Under the pieces are notes generated by a model. That model was given only the letters and a program-made list of their open reading frames with translations. It was not told where the DNA came from and ran no database searches. From Candidatus Fermentibacterota bacterium (GTDB lineage: Bacteria; JAFGKV01), in the NCBI GenBank assembly GCA_016928395.1, contig JAFGKV010000118.1, positions 1 through 12,169 of the forward strand: a DNA stretch of 12,169 nucleotides. The letters are read 5' to 3'. A program made the translations under genes and the position numbers. Each line of letters opens with the position of its first letter. Position 1 is the first letter of the stretch. Below are positions 1 through 11,102 of this stretch, one piece after another.

Positions 1-252
1 GTCTCCACCGTGTCAAAACACCTTTCGATCCTCAAGGCCGCCGGTATCGTTCGTGACGACAAGCGCGGAAGCCAGGTCTTCTACTCGCTCCGTCTCCCCT
101 GCGTCCTGGCCTTCTTCTCGTGCGTCGAGTCGATTCTCGCCGGTGAGCTCCAAGGGCAGGCAGAGCAGACCGGCTGCGGCCTATCCAACGTGACTGTGAA
201 CCAACCACCGGCGCTGTGCAACACGCGGAGGCCCCATGAACTGGAAGGATGA
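1..252 (+). CDS. ArsR/SmtB-family repressor, C-terminal part (5' end outside window)
   Basis: This is the C-terminal 83 residues of a winged helix-turn-helix metal/metalloid repressor; the gene enters from the left edge in frame 1. The visible start, VSTVSKHLSILKAAGIV, is the DNA-recognition helix typical of ArsR/SmtB proteins. It is followed by the beta-wing (DDKRGSQVFYSL). Cysteines lie at visible residues 34, 41 and 59 and could contribute to metalloid sensing, but the classic N-terminal site would be off-window. The stop (TGA, 250-252) lies 17 nt inside the permease gene, so the two are translationally coupled. By family, such proteins repress their own operon until the inducer binds. The promoter is not in the window, so regulation is inferred. 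Family assignment is firm; the inducer is unknown, with an arsenical suggested by the downstream genes. Confidence 0.9.
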   Translation, partial: VSTVSKHLSILKAAGIVRDDKRGSQVFYSLRLPCVLAFFSCVESILAGELQGQAEQTGCGLSNVTVNQPPALCNTRRPHELEG

Positions 253-1540
253 ATGGAAGAAGCTGGCGCTCATCGTCGGCGTGTTTCTCGTGTGCTTCTA
301 CCTGCCCGTGGGGAAGGCGCGCTTCGACAACGCCGTAATGGAATCGCTCCACCTGGTGAAGTGGTACGCGCAGGAACACGTGCTCCTCTGCCTCGTACCA
401 GCCTTCTTCATCGCCGGCGCCATCTCGGTGTTCGTAAGCCAGGCGTCGGTCATGAAGTACCTGGGCGCCAAAGCCAACAAGGTGCTGGCCTACGGCGTCG
501 CCTCGGTGTCGGGAACGATCCTGGCGGTGTGCTCCTGCACCGTGCTGCCACTCTTCGCAGGCATCTATCGCATGGGCGCCGGCCTGGGGCCTGCCACCGC
601 GTTTCTCTACTCCGGCCCGGCCATCAATGTTCTGGCCATTGCTTTGACGGCCCGCGTCTTGGGGCTGAAGCTGGGCATAGCTCGGGCCCTCGGCGCCATC
701 CTGTTCAGTGTCGTCATCGGGTTGCTCATGCACCTCTTCTTCCGCAAGGAAGAGGAGGCAAAGGCCGCGGCCCAGCTCTCGGCGCCGGAGCCCGAGGTAA
801 CCCGTCCACTCTGGAAGAATGCTGTCTACTTCTTTTCCATGGTCGCCATTCTGGTGTTCGCCAACTGGGGCAGGCCGGTACAGGACACCGGGCTATGGCA
901 CGCGATCCACAGCGTCAAGTGGGTCATCACCTCGATCTTCGCCGTTGCTTTGGGCGTGATCCTCGTCGCCTGGTTCAATGTTCGCTGGCAGAAGCTGCTT
1001 CCCGCGGCGATCCCCGCCATGATCCTCGCGCTGCTCCTCCCCGGCGCTCCCATGCTGCCGTTCGCGGCGGCGGTGATAGGACTCTCGGTCGTGATCAGTA
1101 CGGACAAGGGAGAGACCGGCGAGTGGTTCTCCTCATCCTGGGGCTTCGCCAAGCAGATCCTTCCGCTCCTATTCGGCGGCGTGATCGTGGCCGGGCTCCT
1201 GCTGGGAAGCCCCGAAGGGACGCAGGAGGGCCTGATCCCCTCGAAGTGGGTCTCGGGCCTGGTGGGGGGTAACTCCCTGTTTTCCAATCTCTTCGCCTCA
1301 GTCATCGGCGCCTTCATGTACTTCGCGACGCTGACCGAAGTACCCATACTGAAGGGGCTCATCGGCAACGGCATGGGTCAGGGGCCTGCCTTGGCGCTGC
1401 TACTGGCCGGCCCGGCATTGAGCCTTCCCAATATGCTCGTCATCCGCAGCATCATGGGCACGAAGAAGACGATCGTGTTCGTACTCCTCGTTGTGGTGAT
1501 GGCAACGGTGAGCGGCATGGTGTTTGGAATCATGGAATGA
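236..1540 (+). CDS. ArsP-like DUF318 (PF03773) permease
   Basis: This is a 434-residue multi-pass inner-membrane permease of the DUF318/YraQ/ArsP type. Members of this family export trivalent organoarsenicals (ArsP) or other toxic metal species. The hydrophobic segments form two halves (residues about 10-165 and 195-430) joined by a charged linker (KEEEAKAAAQ, about 171-180). The first half carries the family's conserved CSC pair (C99, C101), followed by a motif rich in Gly/Pro (GPATAFLYSGPAIN). The second half repeats the pattern (AGPALSLPNM, about 391-400). The start is fixed by GGAGG at 227-231, four bases before the ATG. The gene overlaps the repressor by 17 nt. The last codons and the TGA stop (1538-1540) lie inside the first octamers of the repeat array that begins at 1525, so the native C-terminus may have been slightly altered. 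Substrate is inferred from the neighbourhood only. Confidence 0.85.
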   Translation: MNWKDEWKKLALIVGVFLVCFYLPVGKARFDNAVMESLHLVKWYAQEHVLLCLVPAFFIAGAISVFVSQASVMKYLGAKANKVLAYGVASVSGTILAVCSCTVLPLFAGIYRMGAGLGPATAFLYSGPAINVLAIALTARVLGLKLGIARALGAILFSVVIGLLMHLFFRKEEEAKAAAQLSAPEPEVTRPLWKNAVYFFSMVAILVFANWGRPVQDTGLWHAIHSVKWVITSIFAVALGVILVAWFNVRWQKLLPAAIPAMILALLLPGAPMLPFAAAVIGLSVVISTDKGETGEWFSSSWGFAKQILPLLFGGVIVAGLLLGSPEGTQEGLIPSKWVSGLVGGNSLFSNLFASVIGAFMYFATLTEVPILKGLIGNGMGQGPALALLLAGPALSLPNMLVIRSIMGTKKTIVFVLLVVVMATVSGMVFGIME

Positions 1541-1634
1541 TGGAAGAATGGAATGGTGGAATGGAGCGAGGACGGATGGATGAATGGATGATCAAACCAT
1601 GGAATGTTGGAATACTGGAATGATGGAATGGTGG
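1525..1634 (+). repeat. Left array of 8-bp repeats (TGGAATNN)
   Basis: Octamers beginning TGGAAT or a close variant start at 1525, 1533, 1541, 1549 and 1557. After a 35-bp interruption rich in GATG/GGAT they resume at 1600, 1608, 1616 and 1624, with a degenerate start at 1632. The phase of 8 bp is kept exactly within each block. The last two bases of each unit vary. The array begins inside the end of the permease gene and stops just before the four-helix-bundle gene. The same motif in the opposite orientation follows that gene. Confidence 0.85.
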
Positions 1635-1660
1635 CGGCAGAACCGGGGAAGGGCAGGATC

Positions 1661-2095
1661 ATGAATGAGAGAAAGAACATCAATCGGGGATACATGCGGC
1701 TGACGGTGTGGCAGGACGCATCCGACTACTACGTGGCGAGTTGCCAGATCTTCAGAGCCCTGTCCTATGACCTGAAGCGAGTATCCTCTCAGCAAGTCGC
1801 TTCAGTCGACTCGATACACAGGGATATCGCCGAAGGATACTGCCGTCGGACCATCAGGGAATACCTGCAGTACCTTAACATCGCTCTCGCATCGGCAGGC
1901 GAGTCAGTATCCGGTCTGCGCGTCTGTCTGAAGGCAGACCAAATCGATGGGGAGCAGTTCGAGTCGCTCGACCGGATGGCGTTCAAGCTGGAGAACGGAT
2001 TGATCAAGCTGATTGAGAGCCTTCAGAAGAGGCAACTGGATGGCTCGTGGGATGACAGCTTCGTGGTACGGGAGTCAAATGCCGCCTATGCGTGA
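1661..2095 (+). CDS. S23/IVP-type four-helix-bundle protein
   Basis: This is a 144-residue, nearly all-helical protein of the 23S-rRNA intervening-sequence (S23) family, which forms four-helix bundles. The hallmark is clear: an L-x-VWQDA first helix (about 14-20), then S-I-x-x-DIAEGY (51-60), RR (62-63), EYLQYLNIALASAGE (67-81) and a fourth amphipathic helix (about 97-124). The tail of about 20 residues after it (DGSWDDSF and following) is longer than usual. The molecular role of the family is not settled; related folds include the Avd accessory protein of diversity-generating retroelements. The ATG at 1661 was chosen because an earlier in-frame ATG (1604) lies in the octamer array and would add only repeat-encoded residues. 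The ribosome site is weak (GGCAGGA). The gene is unrelated to arsenical resistance and looks inserted into the operon. Confidence 0.85.
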   Translation: MNERKNINRGYMRLTVWQDASDYYVASCQIFRALSYDLKRVSSQQVASVDSIHRDIAEGYCRRTIREYLQYLNIALASAGESVSGLRVCLKADQIDGEQFESLDRMAFKLENGLIKLIESLQKRQLDGSWDDSFVVRESNAAYA

Positions 2096-2140
2096 GAGGT
2101 CGATGGATGACTGCAGGCACCCAAGATCCCCGAATCCCCA

Positions 2141-2228
2141 TCATTCCAGCGTTCCATCGTACCATTGCTCCATCATTCCACTATTCCACCCTTCCATCAT
2201 TCCATCGTTCCATTGTTCCATCATTCCG
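2141..2228 (-). repeat. Right array of 8-bp repeats (NNATTCCA, inverted relative to left array)
   Basis: Eleven consecutive octamers in exact 8-bp phase start at 2141. The last six bases read ATTCCA or a one- to two-base variant (GTTCCA, GTACCA, GCTCCA, CTTCCA), and the final unit ends in G. A decayed unit may precede it (2133-2140). On the minus strand these read TGGAAT, the same motif as the left array, so the two arrays form a long imperfect inverted repeat around the four-helix-bundle gene. Confidence 0.85.
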
Positions 2229-2252
2229 CTGTTTCCCTTCCCGGAGGTTTTC

Positions 2253-2486
2253 ATGACAACCATTCAGATCCTGGGCACGGGGTGCCCGAAATGCAAGAAG
2301 CTTGCCGAGAATGCCGAGTCCGCGGCCAAAGAGCTGGGCATCGAGTATCAACTCGTGAAGGTGACCGACATCAACCAGATCATGAGCTTCGGCATCATGA
2401 TGACGCCTGGTCTCGCCGTAAACGGCGAGGTCAAGAGCGTCGGCAAGGTGCCGTCGGTGTCCGATATCAAGAAGCTGCTTCAGTAG
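2253..2486 (+). CDS. Small redox-active thioredoxin-like protein, ArsE-like (TM0996/MTH895 type)
   Basis: This is a 77-residue cytoplasmic mini-thioredoxin. The redox motif CPKC (C11-C14) lies after the first strand (IQILGTG). The cis-proline segment (MMTPGLAVNG) follows, as in the TM0996/MTH895 family of glutaredoxin-sized proteins. The start is fixed by GGAGG at 2243-2247, five bases upstream of the ATG; the longer open frame upstream runs through the octamer array and is not credible. Such proteins often accompany DUF318 permeases. In the arsEFG gene set described from Shewanella, a small protein of this kind (ArsE) acts with ArsF and ArsG against nitroaromatic arsenicals. The presence of ArsG- and ArsF-family genes downstream makes the ArsE role plausible but not proven. 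Its partner could equally be the permease or the DGC protein. Confidence 0.85.
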   Translation: MTTIQILGTGCPKCKKLAENAESAAKELGIEYQLVKVTDINQIMSFGIMMTPGLAVNGEVKSVGKVPSVSDIKKLLQ

Positions 2487-2536
2487 TCGAAGTCATCATT
2501 CAACGAGAATTGTCTCGATATCCACAAGGAGAAGCT

Positions 2537-2989
2537 ATGGCCTCAGATCGTTGTTCATGCCAGGGAGGCACGACGTTGGTATTCGCCTGTTCCGGAGGCG
2601 CCGACGTCGGGGAGATTTCCGACCGCGCCGCCCGGCTTCTTGATGAACGGGATGTGGGCAGCATGTATTGCCTGGCCGGAGTCGGCGGCCGCGTGAGCGG
2701 CATCGTCAAGAGCACCGAGGCCGCTGACCGGGTCATCATGATCGACGGGTGCCCCCTCGATTGTGGGCGTCGTACGTTGGAGGAGGCGTCTATCCGTGGG
2801 TTCACCCATCTTCGGGTGACGGACCTCGGGTTCACGAAGGGCGACTCCCCGCCAACCAGCGACACCATCGAGTGCGTCGCCCAGGCGGCGTGCGCGGTCG
2901 TGGGCAGTGTGTGTGATTCTCCCGGCGCATCGGGGCCGGCTCAGGCGACGGCGCCTGTGTGTGTCGGCTCGCAGTGCTGCGGAGGTTGA
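2537..2989 (+). CDS. DGC-domain putative zinc-binding protein
   Basis: This is a 150-residue cysteine-rich soluble protein of the DGC family (PF08859), annotated as putative zinc-binding. The motif is seen as D70-G71-C72-P73-L74-D75-C76. Other conserved features are FACSGGADVGE (C18) and MYCLAGVGG (C45). The N-terminus carries a C-x-C (C6, C8), and the C-terminal tail adds C126, C142 and a terminal CC pair (C147-C148), giving many thiols for metal or metalloid binding. The ATG at 2537 is preceded by AAGGAG, eight bases upstream. The stop is one base short of the next gene's ATG (2991). DGC proteins are recurrent neighbours of small thioredoxins and DUF318 permeases. A role in binding or handing over the toxic metalloid is inference; no enzymatic activity is established. 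Confidence 0.8.
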   Translation: MASDRCSCQGGTTLVFACSGGADVGEISDRAARLLDERDVGSMYCLAGVGGRVSGIVKSTEAADRVIMIDGCPLDCGRRTLEEASIRGFTHLRVTDLGFTKGDSPPTSDTIECVAQAACAVVGSVCDSPGASGPAQATAPVCVGSQCCGG

Positions 2990-2990
2990 G

Positions 2991-3584
2991 ATGACACTCG
3001 CAACCCGAAGCGTACTCGCGCTGATCGCTACCCTGGGATTGGCCGCCCTCTTCCTTTCATGCGGGCCCCGCGATCACTCTGGAAACCCCGGGACGGTCGC
3101 CGCAGCCCACCGTGATCCACCCCCCGCGCCGACTCCTCCAACCCCACCGGCTGCCGATACTGTCGAGGCAGATTCGGGCACGACCGTCCCCGCGGCTGCA
3201 GCCGTGGATGTTCCCCCGCGGCAGATCGCGGCGCCGGCACATCCGGCGGTCCCAAGCCCGCCTGCTCCGTCGCACTCACCGAAGCCGGCCGCCCTTCCAC
3301 GCCTCGTCGATTTGGGGGCCGACAAGTGTGTCCCTTGCAAGATGATGGCGCCGATTTTGGGTGAGCTGAAGCGCGACTACGCCGACCAGTTCGGTGTAGA
3401 GGTCATCGACGTCTGGAAGGATTCCGCGCCCGGCAGAGCCTACGGCATCAGGGTTATCCCCACGCAGATCTTCTTTGACGCCTCGGGCAAGGAGCTGTGG
3501 CGGCACGAAGGATTCATGGGCAAGGAGGATATCCTGAAAAAATGGGCGGAGCTGGGAGTAACCCTTAGACCGCCCAGAGGGTAG
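2991..3584 (+). CDS. Exported lipoprotein thioredoxin with Pro/Ala-rich linker
   Basis: This is a 197-residue thioredoxin-fold protein predicted to lie outside the cytoplasmic membrane. Residues 1-24 form a hydrophobic signal ending in FLSC, a near-consensus lipobox with C24 as the lipidated residue. Residues about 40-103 are a low-complexity Pro/Ala/Ser linker. The thioredoxin domain follows (about 104-190) with CVPC (C113-C116), cis-Pro157 (VIPTQIFF) and the usual C-terminal helix. The ATG at 2991 follows GGAGG (2981-2985) and the upstream stop directly; the frame extends further upstream, but that stretch overlaps the previous gene. It ends four bases before the next gene, a CcdA-like transporter. 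CcdA/DsbD-type proteins pass electrons to exported thioredoxins, so this is a likely partner of that permease. Substrate is unknown. Confidence 0.85.
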   Translation: MTLATRSVLALIATLGLAALFLSCGPRDHSGNPGTVAAAHRDPPPAPTPPTPPAADTVEADSGTTVPAAAAVDVPPRQIAAPAHPAVPSPPAPSHSPKPAALPRLVDLGADKCVPCKMMAPILGELKRDYADQFGVEVIDVWKDSAPGRAYGIRVIPTQIFFDASGKELWRHEGFMGKEDILKKWAELGVTLRPPRG

Positions 3585-3588
3585 CCCG

Positions 3589-4290
3589 ATGCTTGAGACC
3601 ATCTTCGTCACCCTGTCTCAAGCGGTGGAAGGGAGTGTCGCGGTTGCCCTCGCAGCCTCAGTAGCCTGGGGCATCTTGAGCATCATCTTGAGCCCCTGTC
3701 ATCTGGCGAGCATCCCGCTCATAGTCGGGTTCATCGACACGCAGGGCAGAATCTCGACGAAGCGAGCGTTCACGATCTCACTTGTCTTCTCCCTTGGCAT
3801 CCTGTTGACCATCGCGGCCATCGGTGCGGTAACCGCCGCGGCGGGTCGCATGATGGGCGATATCGGACGAACGGGGAACTACCTTGTGGCCATCGTCTTC
3901 TTCATCGTGGGGCTGCACCTGATCGGCATCATCCCACTGCCGTGGTCAGGCCCAAGCCCGGTGGGCACGAAGCGGCGAGGCATGATGGCCGCCTTCCTGC
4001 TCGGTCTCGTCTTCGGCGTTGCCCTGGGGCCGTGCACCTTCGCCTACATGGCGCCCATGCTTGCCGTGGCCTTCCGTATCGCCGCCACCAAGACCGTGTA
4101 CGGCATCGCCCTGTTGGCCATGTACGGCGTGGGGCACTGCTCGGTGATCGTGCTTGCGGGCACCTTCACCGAGGCTGTCCAGCACTACCTGAACTGGAAC
4201 GAGCGTTCCAAGGGTGCGCTTATCCTGCGGAAGGTCTGCGGCGTGCTGGTGATGCTGGGCGGCGTGTACCTGATCTACACGGCGAGATAG
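3589..4290 (+). CDS. arsG: CcdA/DsbD-like membrane protein, ArsG-family transporter
   Basis: This is a 233-residue polytopic membrane protein with six hydrophobic segments, arranged as an internal duplication typical of the CcdA/DsbD transmembrane domain. The two repeat signatures are LSPCHLASIPL (C37) and LGPCTFAYMAPML (C149). In CcdA proteins these paired cysteines carry electrons across the membrane. The subfamily linked to ArsF-type proteins is known as ArsG, proposed to export aromatic aminoarsenicals made by nitro-group reduction. The call rests on the CcdA-like signatures plus the ArsF-family gene 14 bases downstream and the ArsE-like protein upstream. The alternative is a plain thiol-electron conduit feeding the lipoprotein thioredoxin just before it. 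The ATG at 3589 starts four bases after the upstream stop, so translational coupling is likely. Confidence 0.75.
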   Translation: MLETIFVTLSQAVEGSVAVALAASVAWGILSIILSPCHLASIPLIVGFIDTQGRISTKRAFTISLVFSLGILLTIAAIGAVTAAAGRMMGDIGRTGNYLVAIVFFIVGLHLIGIIPLPWSGPSPVGTKRRGMMAAFLLGLVFGVALGPCTFAYMAPMLAVAFRIAATKTVYGIALLAMYGVGHCSVIVLAGTFTEAVQHYLNWNERSKGALILRKVCGVLVMLGGVYLIYTAR

Positions 4291-4304
4291 GCAGGAGGAG
4301 GACC

Positions 4305-4802
4305 GTGGAGGCGTTTGCCAGTTTCGTCTGCATGATGGCGCTCTGCCTTGGCTCGTCCTATGCGACGCCTCCCGCGGATTGTTCCGAGGCCTCGGGCTCG
4401 GCTGTAATGGACTCGGCACCTACGGAGAGTGCCGGGGCTGACTCCACCGCGACAGACCATGGAAGTGGTTGCGTGGTTGTGTACTACTTCCACAGGACGG
4501 TGCGATGTGTGGAGTGCCTTGAGATGGAGGCATTGACCGTCAAAGCGCTGGCGAGATTCGCGCACGAGCAGGAACGAGGAACACTTGTGCTCAGGGTGCT
4601 CAACGTCGACGAGCCCGATACCGAACATTTCGTTGACGACTTCGCCGTCTACTTCAATACGATCATTCTGGCGCGTGAGGAACAGGGCACGCGAACGGCG
4701 TGGAAAGACATCGGCGTGCGTGCCTGGGAGCTGGTCCCCAACCCCGATGAGTTCATCGCATTCCTCCAGAAGGAGGTCGCCGACTGCCTGGCCGCAACGT
4801 AG
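4305..4802 (+). CDS. arsF: ArsF-family exported CxxC protein
   Basis: This is a 165-residue protein starting at a GTG with a strong GGAGGAG site (4294-4300) directly before it. The N-terminus is a short hydrophobic segment ending in SSYA (about residue 20), read as a signal peptide although it lacks a basic n-region. A polar Ala/Ser/Asp linker follows (about 22-53). The core begins VVVYYFHRTVRCVECLEME with a C68-x-x-C71 pair, matching the YYFH-x-T-x-RC-x-x-C signature of ArsF-type proteins annotated as nitrophenyl-compound nitroreductase subunits. The rest resembles a thioredoxin-like fold. It is the last gene of the operon. In the arsEFG model it works with ArsE and ArsG on nitroaromatic arsenicals. 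That assignment comes from family knowledge and was not derived from a flavin site here, which I do not see. Confidence 0.75.
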   Translation: MEAFASFVCMMALCLGSSYATPPADCSEASGSAVMDSAPTESAGADSTATDHGSGCVVVYYFHRTVRCVECLEMEALTVKALARFAHEQERGTLVLRVLNVDEPDTEHFVDDFAVYFNTIILAREEQGTRTAWKDIGVRAWELVPNPDEFIAFLQKEVADCLAAT

Positions 4803-5018: not shown

Positions 5019-6014
5019 TCAGGGAACGTCAGTGCTGAAGTCGAACTCGCCCACGCGCCCCGACATGGTCAACACGTCGGCAGAGCCATCGACTGCGACG
5101 ACCAGGTAGGTCCAGTTTGAGTTCGGGTCTCCAATGCCATTAGGGCTCGACCAGGTCGTTGTCCCCGCGGGAAGGGTCGCCAGCAGATTGGCCGGAGCCG
5201 GTTTGAAGTACGGGTTGTTCAGCACGCCATGCACGCGGTATTGTGCGGCACCGGAGATGCCCGGCCAATCCAGAACGAGTTGACCCGCCTGCAGGTCTGG
5301 GAACAAGCCGAGCACCACTTCATGCAAGATGACGGCCTGGAGCACCTCTTTGGTGTCGTCACGCTGGGCGAATCCCACGATAGTGCAAGGCTTGTTACGC
5401 CAGCCTGTCGGGATCTGAAACTGCTGAGTCGTCTCGAATGTCTCTCCCGGATTGAGGGATGCGGCGATGCCTGTCGCATTCGGGAATACGTGCAATGCGG
5501 TGTGCGAGAGGTAGCTGAACCCGCCCCAGGTTCCCACGGTGTCATCGCCCGCCGCAACGAAACGCAGATTGAAGAATAGTGAGGAAGCGCTGGTGTTGTG
5601 GACGACCGCGCGCACGTACCCGGTGCCCGTGGCGGTGCTGTAGTCGACGAGGACCAGCTGCATGACAAACGGACTCGCAATAACCTTGCGTTGATCAAAC
5701 CGCAGGCGATACTGAGCATACGTGTCGCTCACGTTCACATACACCCCATCGATGCAGACGTTCGGAACGCCGGTGTAGCCGTAGTAGTTGCGTCGGTCGA
5801 TGTTCCCCGGGACGGTAAACGAATCACTTATGTGGTAGGCAATGATGGCCAGCGAGTCGCCGACTTCTGAGGAGAGCTGATCAAGCGCAGACTGCGCGTT
5901 GGGGCAACTCCCTCACCATGTACCGACGAAGTCTTCGGCGAGCACGGTTCGCTGCACGGCCCAGGCAGGCGTGCAGAATCCACTCAAGAGCACAAGTCCA
6001 AGCACAAGTCTCAT
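5019..6014 (-). CDS. Candidate selenoprotein: exported thioredoxin-like (Omp28-like) with UGSC motif
   Basis: Read through one in-frame UGA (5915-5913), this is a 331-residue protein. The start ATG at 6014 has a strong GGAGGG site. Residues 1-19 are a signal peptide (cut likely after AWA). The thioredoxin-like domain (about 20-100) contains EDFVGTW-UGA-GSCPNAQ: the UGA is codon 34, exactly where CxxC thioredoxins have their first cysteine, with C37 as the resolving cysteine. The cis-proline loop is present (GYTGVPNVCIDG). After the UGA the frame is open for 297 codons. Residues about 100-331 look like beta-rich, Fn3/Ig-type domains (for example the segment QAGQLVLDWPGISGAAQYRV). The N-terminus resembles Omp28-related proteins. 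The true terminator is also TGA (5021-5019). The alternative is a nonsense mutation or a base-call error, but the exact position and the hairpin behind it favour selenocysteine. Confidence 0.75.
5871..5912 (-). promoter_or_regulatory. SECIS-like hairpin directly after the in-frame UGA
   Basis: On the minus strand the bases after the UGA fold into one hairpin. GG (5912-5911) pairs with CC (5872-5871), with one bulged U. GAGUUG (5910-5905) pairs with CAGCUC (5879-5874). After an internal loop (CCC/AU), CAA (5901-5899) pairs with UUG (5884-5882). Past a bulged C (5898), GCGCA (5897-5893) pairs with UGCGC (5889-5885). The apical loop is GUC (5892-5890). It begins 21 nt after the UGA and starts with G, which fits the known bacterial SECIS pattern of loop distance about 16-37 nt and a G in the first two loop bases. 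Folding was done by eye. Confidence 0.6.
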
Positions 6015-6140
6015 GGCTCCCTCCTCGATGGGGAAAAAAGGAGTGCATCTGTGCGGATGCTCCAGAATATGGTGCTTCGTCTGCGGTGGTCAACCGCGCC
6101 CTCCAGGGGGAGACGCGAAGGTCGTGGAAGGATACGAGGG

Positions 6141-6238
6141 TGTCGGGCCTGAAGGCCCTCCTACAGTGCCGGCAGCTTCCCTTTGTACGAGCGGCTTCAG
6201 CCGCGACCCTGCCCGCGCATCCGTGTCGGGCCTGAAGG
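6141..6238. repeat. REP-like palindromic repeat cluster
   Basis: Two half-elements of the family seen again at 10840-11102 occur here. GTCGGGCCTGAAGGCCCTCC with flanking bases spans 6141-6165. TTGTACGAGCGGCTTCAGCC and the bases after it span 6183-6208. A truncated third copy (TGTCGGGCCTGAAGG, 6224-6238) runs up to the serpin stop. Each half holds a small hairpin: GGGCCT-GA-AGGCCC and GCGGCT-TC-AGCCGC. The cluster fills most of the gap between the serpin and the selenoprotein candidate. It may act as an mRNA stabiliser or transcription barrier; that is inference. Confidence 0.75.
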
Positions 6239-6243
6239 TTTTC

Positions 6244-7497
6244 CTACTCCGCCGTCGGATCCGCCACCCTTCCGAGGAAGAGGATACTGCCGGTCACATT
6301 GTCGCGGATGTAGAACAGGAAGGGATGGTCGGCCTTGAAGAACGGCGGGATGCCGGTGTACCCCATGTCGACTTCCGTCGCGGCGGCAGCTTCGGTTCCC
6401 TCCTCATTCACCTGGACAAAGGCCTTGTGACGAACGTGATCGATGAAGAGGTCATAGCGTCCGTCCATCCCGGAGAAGTCGGCGAGGAGCGGGCTGAAAG
6501 CAGACGGCATCCCCAAGCCCGAGAGGGCAGCCTCGAGGTCGAATGAGGAGGTGACGGTCCAGCGGGGGAGGAGCACCTCGGTCAGGTCACATTCACGGAT
6601 GAGCCCATACCAGTGGTCAATCTGGTCGACAGTGAGGGCCGCCTCGAGTTCATCCAGGCCATCATCGTCCTCAGGCAGTAGGATCACCATGGAAAGGTCC
6701 TCGCCTGCGTACGGCAGCTCGAGGAGCCTGACGTCGCATGGAGGCCCGTATGCATGGCCGTAGCGCTGAGTCGTGGACTTCATGCTCATGAACTGCGCTG
6801 GAACCGAGACGCCGGGCGTAACCCAGAAGGCACCCTCCTTCGTCAAGCGGGGGTCGAACTGGTTGAGCCATGTCCCCTTGAAGTAGATCGCGTTCACGAG
6901 AACAAGCCGTGTGATATCACTGATGCCGCCGGGTGGAATGAGGTCCTCGATCCGCCCATTGGTCTGCTCCTCCACCCACTGGTTGATGGCCTGGCGAGCC
7001 GCCTCATAGTCTGCTATGAAATCGACCCACTCCATCGGGGCCTTGTACGTGTCGCGCAACAACGATAGAAACGCCGCGAGGTAGTCCCAGCCCGTCTGCC
7101 CCCAGAGACGGTTGGCGATGGACAGCTCGTAGCCGCCCAGATCAATCCCGCGATTCAGGCTCTCCAGGAGCGCCCCCGATGCCTCGTGCCACTGGGGTGC
7201 GCTGCCCGGAATGTGGAGCACCTGCGCCATCTCCTGTGCCGTGTTACCCGCCGCCCCCGCATACGTCATGCTGAGGGCAGTGGCGATGCTGTAGGGCGAC
7301 ATGAACAGGTTGCCGGGCGTATCGCAGACCGCGCGGTACAGGTCGCACCCGAACTCGTTATTCGCGGCCACAACCTCATCGGCCGCCCCTCTGAGCTCCT
7401 CCGGGATCGCCCGCTCCGCGAATGGATCAGGTTCGGTAGCGTTGTCGCACGCGAGGATGAGAAGCAAGAACGCGAGAAGCAGACGTGTGGGAACCAT
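6244..7497 (-). CDS. Lipoprotein serpin (serine/cysteine protease inhibitor)
   Basis: This is a 417-residue serpin, full length for the family, with a lipoprotein signal (LLLILAC, lipidated C17). The fold markers are present: LFMSPYSIATALSMTYAGA (helix B/C), LVLVNAIYFKGTW (strand 3A), PFLFYIRDNVTGSILFLGRV (strands 4B/5B at the C-terminus). The reactive-centre hinge EEGTEAAAATEV is inhibitory in type: small residues from P12 to P9 and Thr at P14. Counting as in alpha-1-antitrypsin puts P1-P1' at T381-G382, so the target is not a trypsin-like enzyme; an elastase-, subtilisin- or papain-like target is possible. The start ATG at 7497 has GGGAGG just upstream; the upstream extension of the frame is repeat-derived. 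Likely role: protection of the cell envelope from own or foreign proteases. Asp follows the lipid cysteine. Confidence 0.93.
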   Translation of the reverse strand: MVPTRLLLAFLLLILACDNATEPDPFAERAIPEELRGAADEVVAANNEFGCDLYRAVCDTPGNLFMSPYSIATALSMTYAGAAGNTAQEMAQVLHIPGSAPQWHEASGALLESLNRGIDLGGYELSIANRLWGQTGWDYLAAFLSLLRDTYKAPMEWVDFIADYEAARQAINQWVEEQTNGRIEDLIPPGGISDITRLVLVNAIYFKGTWLNQFDPRLTKEGAFWVTPGVSVPAQFMSMKSTTQRYGHAYGPPCDVRLLELPYAGEDLSMVILLPEDDDGLDELEAALTVDQIDHWYGLIRECDLTEVLLPRWTVTSSFDLEAALSGLGMPSAFSPLLADFSGMDGRYDLFIDHVRHKAFVQVNEEGTEAAAATEVDMGYTGIPPFFKADHPFLFYIRDNVTGSILFLGRVADPTAE

Positions 7498-7534
7498 ATG
7501 CCCTCCCAGTCGTGGCCTTCTCAGGCCGTGCAAG

Positions 7535-7575
7535 CGGAGTCCTGTACATGCGCTCCAATATACACGAGGACTCCG
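7535..7575. promoter_or_regulatory. Inverted repeat upstream of the serpin, possible operator
   Basis: CGGAGTCCT (7535-7543) and AGGACTCCG (7567-7575) are perfect 9-bp inverted arms 23 bases apart. They lie 38-78 bases upstream of the serpin start. On the minus strand the interval contains TATATT (7562-7557), a fair -10 box, though I see no good -35 at the right distance. The arrangement would suit a dimeric regulator covering a promoter, but this is weakly supported. Confidence 0.3.
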
Positions 7576-7673
7576 CCGGCGGTTGCGGGCAAGACACACG
7601 CAGACGGGCAGATCTGGGGGGCGCGATGCCGGCCGCCCGACCTGAGTATGGTCCGCACTATCGGACCACGTTT

Positions 7674-7746
7674 CTCTGGAGGGCCGCGGTCCCCGCGGCC
7701 GGCGTGAACCACGATGCACGGACGCGACGAAGCGCGTCCCTCCATT
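7674..7746. repeat. Dispersed palindromic repeat, copy 1 (about 74 bp)
   Basis: This sequence matches 10697-10770 almost base for base. Its ends are complementary (GGAGGG near the left end, CCCTCC near the right). It contains the inner dyads CCGCGG/CCGCGG and GGACGCG/CGCGTCC. It lies between the divergent serpin and vapBC genes. No coding capacity or transposase is evident, so it behaves like a REP/MITE-class element. The rest of 7498-7794 shows no gene. Confidence 0.75.
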
Positions 7747-7794
7747 GTTCACGAGGGAGCATGGCTGCGCGCTGCCGACCTATGTAGATCAGGG

Positions 7795-7855: not shown

Positions 7856-8083
7856 ATGAGAGTCACTACCAAAGGTCAGGTCACTATTCCGCAGGACATC
7901 CGGGAGCGGCTCGGCATTGAGCCAGGGACCGAAGTTGAGTTCCGACTCGAAGGCACAACTGTCACGCTAGTACCGGCAGGAAGAAACAGCACAAGGGGGA
8001 AGCGAATCGTTGGGCGTCTGCGCGGCCGCGCAACGGTCAGGATGAGCACCGACCAAATCATGGCGTTGACGCGCGGTGGCTGA
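7856..8083 (+). CDS. vapB: AbrB/SpoVT-type antitoxin (VapB-like)
   Basis: This is a 75-residue antitoxin. The first 42 residues form a swapped-hairpin AbrB/MazE DNA-binding domain (RVTTKGQVTIPQDIRERLGI, then PGTEVEFRLEGTTVTLVP). The basic C-terminal part (about 43-75, GKRIVGRLRGRATVRMSTDQ) is the toxin-wrapping segment; this -GRLRG- plus -STDQIMALTR- pattern is common in VapB proteins paired with PIN toxins. GGAG at 7846-7849 precedes the ATG. The stop TGA shares its last base with the ATG of the toxin (8083), a coupling that helps keep the antitoxin in excess. Identity as an antitoxin is well supported by the domain and the partner. Confidence 0.92.
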   Translation: MRVTTKGQVTIPQDIRERLGIEPGTEVEFRLEGTTVTLVPAGRNSTRGKRIVGRLRGRATVRMSTDQIMALTRGG

Positions 8084-8493
8084 TGATCGGAACATTGGTC
8101 GACAGCAACGTCATTCTGGACATCCTGACTGAGGATCCAGTGTGGTTCGCTAGGTCGTCCGATGCCGTCGAGCGTTGCGCCAACACCGGCCCGCTTTTCA
8201 TCAATGTGGTCATCTACGCGGAGGTCTCGGTTGGCTTCCAACGCATCGAAGACCTCGAAGAGGCTCTCCCCGCCTCCGACTTCCCACGGCTGCACATCCC
8301 TCTCGAGGCCGGCTTCCTTGCTGCCAAAGCGTACCAGGCCTACAGCCAAAGGGGAGGAGCCAAGACTTCGCCGCTTCCCGATTTCCTCATCGGAGCGCAT
8401 GCGGCCGTGGCGGGTCTCCAGCTGCTGACGCGCGACGCGGGCAGATACCGCACCTACTTCCCGAACGTACACATCATTGCGCCGAGCGGGTAA
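8083..8493 (+). CDS. vapC: VapC-type PIN-domain ribonuclease toxin
   Basis: This is a 136-residue PIN-domain protein, normal length for VapC. The acidic residues that bind the metal are in place: D7 (LVDSNVILD), E47 (VIYAEVSVG), D100 (SPLPDFLIGAHA) and D118 (LLTRDAGRYRTYFP). VapC toxins are Mg2+/Mn2+-dependent RNases that cut tRNA or rRNA and stop translation when the antitoxin is lost. The gene starts at the base that ends the antitoxin stop codon and has no independent ribosome site of note. The catalytic set is complete, so the toxin appears functional. The RNA target cannot be read from the sequence. Confidence 0.93.
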   Translation: MIGTLVDSNVILDILTEDPVWFARSSDAVERCANTGPLFINVVIYAEVSVGFQRIEDLEEALPASDFPRLHIPLEAGFLAAKAYQAYSQRGGAKTSPLPDFLIGAHAAVAGLQLLTRDAGRYRTYFPNVHIIAPSG

Positions 8494-9352: not shown

Positions 9353-10666
9353 GTGGCTAAGGTCGGCAGTGGGACAAGCGGCGACTCTCTTCTCACGTTC
9401 TTTGGTGCTCATCCGGGTTTTGGGAAGTCGGTTTCGATTGCGGCAGACGCAAACGAGGATGGTCTGGAAGACCTGCTCGTGGGCGCCGGGGGATTGTACA
9501 CGGGATGCGCGGTGACGGGCGAAGCCTATGTGCTTAGCGCCTCAGACGGAGCAGTGCTTCTCACCCTGGCTTCGGCGAACCCCGAAAGCGCCGGCACGTT
9601 CGGGTATTCAGTCTCTGGAGAAGCGAATGCTGACGGGAGTGGGCCCCCCGATATTCTTGTGGGTGCCCCTCGGGAAGATGGCGGAGCTGTAGATGCCGGC
9701 AGAGTCTACCTGTTCAGCGGGAGCGACGCGAGCCTCGTGAACACGCTGCTGTCACCAACGTCGGAAGCCGGAGGCCAATTCGGGTTCTGCCTGGCATCCA
9801 TCGGCGACGTCAATGGGGACGGACTCGACGACATCCTGATCGGTGCACCGTACGAGGATGGCGGCGCCGTTGATGCGGGCCGAGCCTACGTGTTCAGCGG
9901 TACAGGGGCACTGCTCGCCACCCTCGAGTCCCCCGATCCCGAACCCGACGGCCTATTCGGGTACTCGCTCGATGGGCTCGGCGATACCAACGGCGACGGG
10001 AGCCCTGATTTCGCGATCGGCGCTCCGTACGAAGATGGCGGCGCTGTCGATGCAGGCAGGGTCTATGTCTACAGCGGGGGCACCGTACCGGTGGAACTGG
10101 CGGGCTTTGCGGCAGTGGCTCGCAACGGCCAGGTCTTGTTTGCCTGGTCGACGCTCTCCGAGACCGAGACCTTCGGGTTCCATGTGTATCGGGCAGGCAC
10201 CGCGACCCAGGACTACGCCCGGATCACGGCATCCATCATTCCCGGTGCCGGCACGAATTCCGTCCGGCACGACTACTCGTACACCGATGCGACTGTCCAG
10301 CCCGGGACCTGCCTCTACAAGCTGGCGGATGTGGACTTCGGCGGAACCCAGACCATGCACGGGCCGGTGAGCGTGACCGTGCTGCCGACGAGCTTCAGCT
10401 TGCTGGGCGCACATCCGAACCCGTTCAGCGAAACGACGACCCTGCGGCTCAACCTGCCGCAATCCGGCCACCTCTACGTCGTCATCCATAACATGGCCGG
10501 CGAGCTGGTGCGGAAGTTGGCAGACGGAGAGATGGGTGCGGGAGTGCAGGAGATCTCGTGGGACGGTCGAGGTGATGCAGGCAAGTCAGTAGCTCCGGGA
10601 ACGTACACCTGCCGAGCAGAGTCGGATGGCAGAATGCAGACCGCCAAGGTGGTGGTCACGAAATAG
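9353..10666 (+). CDS. FG-GAP repeat protein with FlgD/T9SS-like C-terminal domain, C-terminal part
   Basis: These 437 residues are the main part of the FG-GAP gene that begins at 8743. The GTG at 9353 is only the first possible start in this frame; the frame is open from 9275. Four FG-GAP blades are seen (about 24-45, 83-105, 143-165, 202-224) with calcium-type loops such as DVNGDGLDD and DTNGDGSPD, each followed by IGAP or VGAP. Between blades, the segment EDGGAVDAGR is repeated three times, nearly identical. Next comes an Fn3-like module (about 246-345, starting VPVELAGFAA). Last is a FlgD-Ig-type domain (about 350-437) opening with GAHPNPFSETT and ending APGTYTCRAE, as in T9SS-type or related C-terminal sorting domains of FCB-group bacteria. 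Likely surface-attached or secreted; ligand unknown. Confidence 0.85.
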   Translation: MAKVGSGTSGDSLLTFFGAHPGFGKSVSIAADANEDGLEDLLVGAGGLYTGCAVTGEAYVLSASDGAVLLTLASANPESAGTFGYSVSGEANADGSGPPDILVGAPREDGGAVDAGRVYLFSGSDASLVNTLLSPTSEAGGQFGFCLASIGDVNGDGLDDILIGAPYEDGGAVDAGRAYVFSGTGALLATLESPDPEPDGLFGYSLDGLGDTNGDGSPDFAIGAPYEDGGAVDAGRVYVYSGGTVPVELAGFAAVARNGQVLFAWSTLSETETFGFHVYRAGTATQDYARITASIIPGAGTNSVRHDYSYTDATVQPGTCLYKLADVDFGGTQTMHGPVSVTVLPTSFSLLGAHPNPFSETTTLRLNLPQSGHLYVVIHNMAGELVRKLADGEMGAGVQEISWDGRGDAGKSVAPGTYTCRAESDGRMQTAKVVVTK

Positions 10667-10839: not shown

Positions 10840-11102
10840 CATTGTACAAGCGGCTTCAGCCGCGACCTCATGTCGGGCCTAAAGGCCCTCCTACACCGTG
10901 AGCGCGTGCAGCACCGCACGAGCGCTCTCTCATTGTACGAACGGCTTCAGCCGCGACCGCATGTCGAGCCGCATGTCGGGCCTGAAGGCCCTCCTACATC
11001 ATCGAATGCGTGCAATACCGCCCGAGCGCTCTCTCATTGTACGAGCGGCTTCAGCCGCGACCGCATGTCGAGCCGCATGTCGGGCCTGAAGGCCCTCCTA
11101 CA
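10840..11102. repeat. Three REP-like units, partly in a 104-bp tandem
   Basis: Units lie at 10840-10895, 10931-10998 and 11035-11102. Each starts with CATTGTAC, carries the hairpin GCGGCT-TC-AGCCGC, then the hairpin GGGCCT-GA-AGGCCC (one base changed in unit 1), and ends CTCCTACA. Units 2 and 3 also share an extra GCATGTCGAGCC insert and have the same period of 104 bp. The spacers of about 35 bp before them are alike too (both end in GAGCGCTCTCT). The block fills the gap between the convergent FG-GAP and dodecin genes and may serve as a transcription barrier. No gene is seen in 10667-11129. Confidence 0.85.

Follow-up and report, generated by a model that had tools for sequence, protein, structure and literature searches.

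The minus-strand gene at 5019–6014 of the window (the whole stretch of DNA analyzed, 12,169 nt) very probably encodes an exported Omp28/HBP35-type thioredoxin-fold oxidoreductase in which the UGA at codon 34 is translated as selenocysteine (Sec). An earlier note on this DNA had proposed a UxxC selenoprotein, and this reading was supported by the column of homologous residues at the UGA, by selection, by a conserved SECIS-like hairpin and by the Sec machinery. The frame was as that note had described it, with correct coordinates: codons 1–33 comprise a signal-peptide-like start and AEDFVGTW, a single TGA follows as codon 34, GSCPNAQSALDQL comes directly after it, and 297 codons (35–331) remain open up to the TGA stop at 5021–5019. 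In translation, the active-site motif around the UGA is TW-U-G-S-C-P. The program-made list of reading frames contained, 3' of the UGA, only a 241-aa frame with a GTG start. The following features were assigned (basis in brackets).

6017..6026, minus: Shine-Dalgarno-like GAGGAGGGAG, ahead of the ATG at 6014–6012 (sequence)
5019..6014, minus: predicted exported Omp28-like selenoprotein gene, complete, 331 residues, TGA stop at 5019–5021 (frame open when TGA is translated as U, homologues, dN/dS)
5958..6014, minus: putative signal peptide, residues 1–19, MRLVLGLVLLSGFCTPAWA (sequence character only: hydrophobic core and AxA-like end)
5913..5915, minus: in-frame UGA, codon 34, first residue of UGSC, read as selenocysteine (homologue column)
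5904..5906, minus: codon 37 (TGC), predicted resolving cysteine of the UxxC motif (Cys in 48/48 homologues)
5882..5901, minus: SECIS-like apical hairpin CAACGCGCAGUCUGCGCUUG, GUC loop at 5890–5892, 20 nt after the UGA (folding, orthologue identity, SECIS model rules)
5868..5915, minus: longer stem-loop from the UGA around the apical hairpin, -22.7 kcal/mol (48 nt), z -3.4 (folding)
5679..5954, minus: predicted thioredoxin-fold domain, residues about 21–112 (AlphaFold2 model; HBP35 match)
5310..5678, minus: predicted beta-sandwich (Omp28-like) domain, residues about 113–235 (model; HBP35 and P. gingivalis Omp28 2r2c; weak Pfam match)
5040..5309, minus: predicted C-terminal beta domain, residues about 236–325, common to many proteins of the lineage (model)

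The window lies in a draft genome (G000; 4.79 Mb, 94% complete, 343 contigs), which was compared with a genome of the same genus (G001) and one of the same family (G002). In a translated search, G001 gave an orthologue (77% identity, one TGA); paralogues and numerous distant homologues were recovered as well. For the genome scan, an initial alignment (A1) proved too heterogeneous and was exchanged for a second one (A2). Of 48 aligned Omp28-like homologues, 14 had UGA in the codon 34 column and the other 34 had Cys. The UGA thus stands at the first redox-cysteine position, with Cys or Sec in 48/48 rows, and the earlier note had named Cys in homologues at this codon as support for Sec. Cys37 was present in all 48 and no second internal UGA was seen; UGAs close to the ends of two homologues (L037 and L108) were rejected as internal codons, being terminators included in the match. 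Within G000 itself at least three Sec genes of the Omp28-like type (on contigs C153, C196 and C331) were found beside Cys paralogues (on C150 and C26), and the additional UGA paralogue on C331 reads GEMITNSGUSSCP and has its own hairpin. A quickly built tree implied at least 4 changes of Sec/Cys state when only well-supported branches were counted, and 8 by parsimony over the whole tree. Two close sister Omp28-like proteins from one further genome (L021 and L030, both G032) have Sec in one and Cys in the other at the same position, forming a natural Sec/Cys pair.

The stem of the apical hairpin is CAACGCGCA...UGCGCUUG, with 8 pairs and one bulge. In the bacterial SECIS model the loop has 3–9 nt with a G in its first two positions and lies 16–37 nt from the UGA, the upper stem has 4–16 bp, and the hairpin has an energy of -7.5 kcal/mol or lower (PMC13188914). 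The GUC loop, the 20-nt spacing and the 8 pairs agree with the loop, spacing, stem and G rules; the apical stem alone folds at -6.7 kcal/mol, just short of the energy limit, and the entire 48-nt segment at -22.7 kcal/mol. The apical hairpin is identical in the G001 orthologue and lies inside codons 37–44, an 8-codon stretch longer than any other with identical codons in the gene. The outer stem (z -3.4) was dropped as a signal because it is not conserved in that orthologue, which leaves the apical hairpin as the proposed element. In G000, G001 and G002, the selD gene that encodes Sec contains GCGCAGGUCCUGCGC, which closely resembles GCGCAGUCUGCGC of the Omp28-like gene. For comparison across the family, the best rule-obeying hairpin of each homologue was taken from 14 Sec and 34 Cys genes. 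Hairpins were stronger in the Sec homologues (median -8.0 vs -1.0 kcal/mol; Mann-Whitney p 6.7e-6, indicative only since the rows are related), and the mean codon-shuffle fraction for the best hairpin was 0.12 in Sec genes and 0.59 in Cys genes. An Rfam scan of the window and a search with RF00031 gave no match; RF00031 was silent in controls too and is hence uninformative on bacterial SECIS elements.

Profile searches of G000 returned a full-length selB (342 bits); a tRNA-Sec gene (selC) with anticodon TCA (UCA) was also found, as were two selD genes, one of them with a UGA at its catalytic position. The Sec-type selD (G000:C22:4999-5931, L065) reads AAGUAAK and has a strong conserved hairpin, GGCGCAGGUCCUGCGCC, as do L064, L066 and L067; the second selD of G000 is Cys-type and lies within a 783-aa frame (L062). 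The earlier note had proposed looking for selA, selB, selC and selD in the genome. The last three were present, and selA gave no match in the 94%-complete G000 assembly with two models but was strong in the closest relatives, the same-genus G001 and the same-family G002. The gene adjoining selA in G001 likewise had no close orthologue in G000 (best match 35% identity). Since selA occurs in both relatives and its G001 neighbor has no close match in G000, an assembly gap likely accounts for the missing selA, judging from gene content. Across genomes, SelA scored above its cut-off in 11/11 for which a UGA-bearing homologue was listed and in 11/22 with none listed (hypergeometric 0.0036, on rows that are not fully independent). 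In one genome that retains a UGA-bearing Omp28-like gene, a SelA match runs through 2 TGA and 1 TAG codons (G106:C83:7374-8537), perhaps a decayed or frameshifted selA.

It is very unlikely that the UGA is instead read through without Sec, whether by general recoding or by near-cognate decoding (e.g., as Trp). Such readthrough would likewise keep the frame open after the UGA, but TGA terminates other genes of the window (e.g., ArsP_1, DGC and MazE), and the earlier note had excluded general recoding on that ground. Homologues, moreover, have Cys and not Trp in the UGA column, and tRNA-Sec, selB and selD are present together with a conserved SECIS-like hairpin.

Between the G000 and G001 orthologues, dN/dS (NG86) was ~0.15 before the UGA and ~0.13 over codons 35–331, with dS ~1.3 on both sides; these ratios show purifying selection before and after the UGA. 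Because 14 homologues share one alignment column and selection is purifying on both sides, the UGA is placed beyond chance, and because the orthologue retains TGA at dS ~1.3 with low dN/dS, a neutral or erroneous UGA would not have persisted. The TGA-N6-TGYCC motif alone was left out of the evidence, being no rarer than expected by chance (~1 random match in the window). If TGC or TGT had been misread or misassembled in the gene of an ordinary Cys protein, this would suit an assembly in 343 draft contigs and a column in which Cys is the commoner residue, but such an error is even less probable than non-Sec readthrough: TGA also occupies this codon in the separately assembled G001, despite this synonymous divergence, random errors would not pick one column in G000 paralogues and in homologues from many other genomes, and SelA was found in 11/11 further tested genomes with UGA-bearing homologues. 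That the gene is a pseudogene, truncated after 33 residues by a nonsense mutation, is scarcely credible given dN/dS ~0.13 downstream of the UGA, the large synonymous divergence and the same UGA in the orthologue, even though conventional annotation would begin the gene after the UGA or label it disrupted.

The structure of the window protein was predicted with AlphaFold2 (mean pLDDT 87.9), and the UxxC motif was placed just ahead of the first helix in the predicted thioredoxin domain. A structure search with the model returned HBP35 (5y1a) over residues 19–235 (Z 24.9, rmsd 2.2, 215 residues, 14% identity), and a weak Pfam Omp28 (PF11551) match was obtained at residues 170–228 (18.9 vs a cut-off of 34.9). 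Residues 235–331 gave many matches in G000, G001 and G002 by translated search, and residues 234–326 matched structurally the N-terminal domain of the pectate lyases PelI/Pel3. Transglutaminase and glycoside-hydrolase structural matches were not taken as function; they match the beta domains.

By the established bacterial mechanism, SelB with Sec-tRNA(UCA) would bind the hairpin and bring Sec to the UGA, and insertion would yield the full protein in place of a 33-residue fragment. After export, the U34-G-S-C37 pair of the modeled thioredoxin domain would carry out thiol/selenol-disulfide exchange at the cell surface or within the envelope; Sec would presumably attack and Cys37 resolve. More speculatively, electrons might arrive via the adjoining DsbD-type transmembrane protein (3589–4290) and exported thioredoxin (2985–3584), whose genes adjoin the selenoprotein gene.

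The DsbD-type gene, a small CxxC protein gene and a serpin gene keep their positions in G001. On the plus strand of the window, the run at 236–4802 encodes an ArsP_1 permease, a Thioredoxin_3 protein, a DGC-domain protein, the exported thioredoxin, a DsbD_TM protein and a small protein, and resembles a metalloid/redox cluster; the small protein is without a Pfam match, shares 48% identity with its G001 counterpart and contains a conserved RCxxC motif. The serpin gene (6244–7752, minus; Pfam E 1.8e-111) lies directly upstream of the selenoprotein gene on the same strand and also adjoins it in G001. Elsewhere in the window, a MazE-like antitoxin gene followed by a PIN-domain protein gene at 7856–8493 is likely a VapBC-type pair, and an FG-GAP repeat protein with a FlgD_ig domain at its end is encoded at 9353–10666 (plus). 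Intergenic sequences at 6150–6260 and about 10870–11100 are similar around GTCGGGCCTGAAGG and GAGCGGCTTCAGCCGCGACC and contain spurious similar frames (by eye).

Standard annotation would truncate or mis-start this gene and its relatives; the latter are likely to be mis-annotated in the same way because they fall far below the only model now available for Omp28-like proteins with Sec. A single genome here contains both Sec and Cys paralogues of one exported thioredoxin, which makes the long-standing question of what Sec contributes beyond Cys testable inside one family. With this gene, Candidatus Eisenbacteria would gain a predicted envelope selenoprotein; the host was assigned to this group in the present analysis, and the papers on the group that were examined make no mention of selenocysteine. 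A wider proposal, about as likely as not, is that exported thioredoxins of the Omp28/HBP35 type make up a large and poorly annotated superfamily with repeated Sec/Cys exchange in poorly known phyla, well beyond NF045500, and that this lineage, which keeps three or more Sec copies alongside Cys copies, may have a selenium-dependent cell-surface redox system.

The protein was compared with four known systems. Like Sec-containing thioredoxins (UxxC Trx), it has Sec in place of the first active-site Cys, but those are small stand-alone proteins, whereas the window protein is predicted to be exported and multi-domain. It shares a beta-sandwich with the Omp28 family outer membrane lipoproteins (NF033782, PF11551, 2r2c; NF033782 E 1.1e-12), yet it scores below the curated cut-offs of NF033782 (47.7 vs 150) and PF11551 (18.9 vs 34.9). 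HBP35 of Porphyromonas gingivalis contains Cys rather than Sec and has a Por/type IX secretion domain at its C-terminus. In the predicted structure the window protein resembles HBP35 in having a thioredoxin domain followed by a beta-sandwich, and differs from it in its Sec and in its C-terminal beta domain. HBP35 is an exported thioredoxin for which thioredoxin activity has been reported (PMC2907840).

The earlier note knew of no UxxC selenoprotein with an exported Omp28-like architecture, but this class of architecture is not new, Sec-containing Omp28-like proteins having already been described: NF045500, 'Omp28-related selenoprotein', is GOS_C, found in Global Ocean Sampling data in 2008 (PMC2398784) and listed with UxxC in a 2026 review (PMC13188914). 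A literature search linking Omp28 with selenoprotein or selenocysteine returned nothing relevant, although the family exists as GOS_C. No NF045500 match above the cut-off was found in the 386 genomes sampled, though many of these have UGA-bearing relatives. The window protein is Omp28-related like NF045500, shares with it a thioredoxin-like fold (predicted here) and UxxC (here UGSC), and is similar to it over residues 21–229 (E 9.4e-10). It differs in scoring 38.4 bits where the curated cut-off is 200, as a distant relative, and in having a C-terminal domain of its own. On these sequence comparisons, the window protein is a divergent new member of the known Sec-containing Omp28-like proteins, within a wider under-annotated group.
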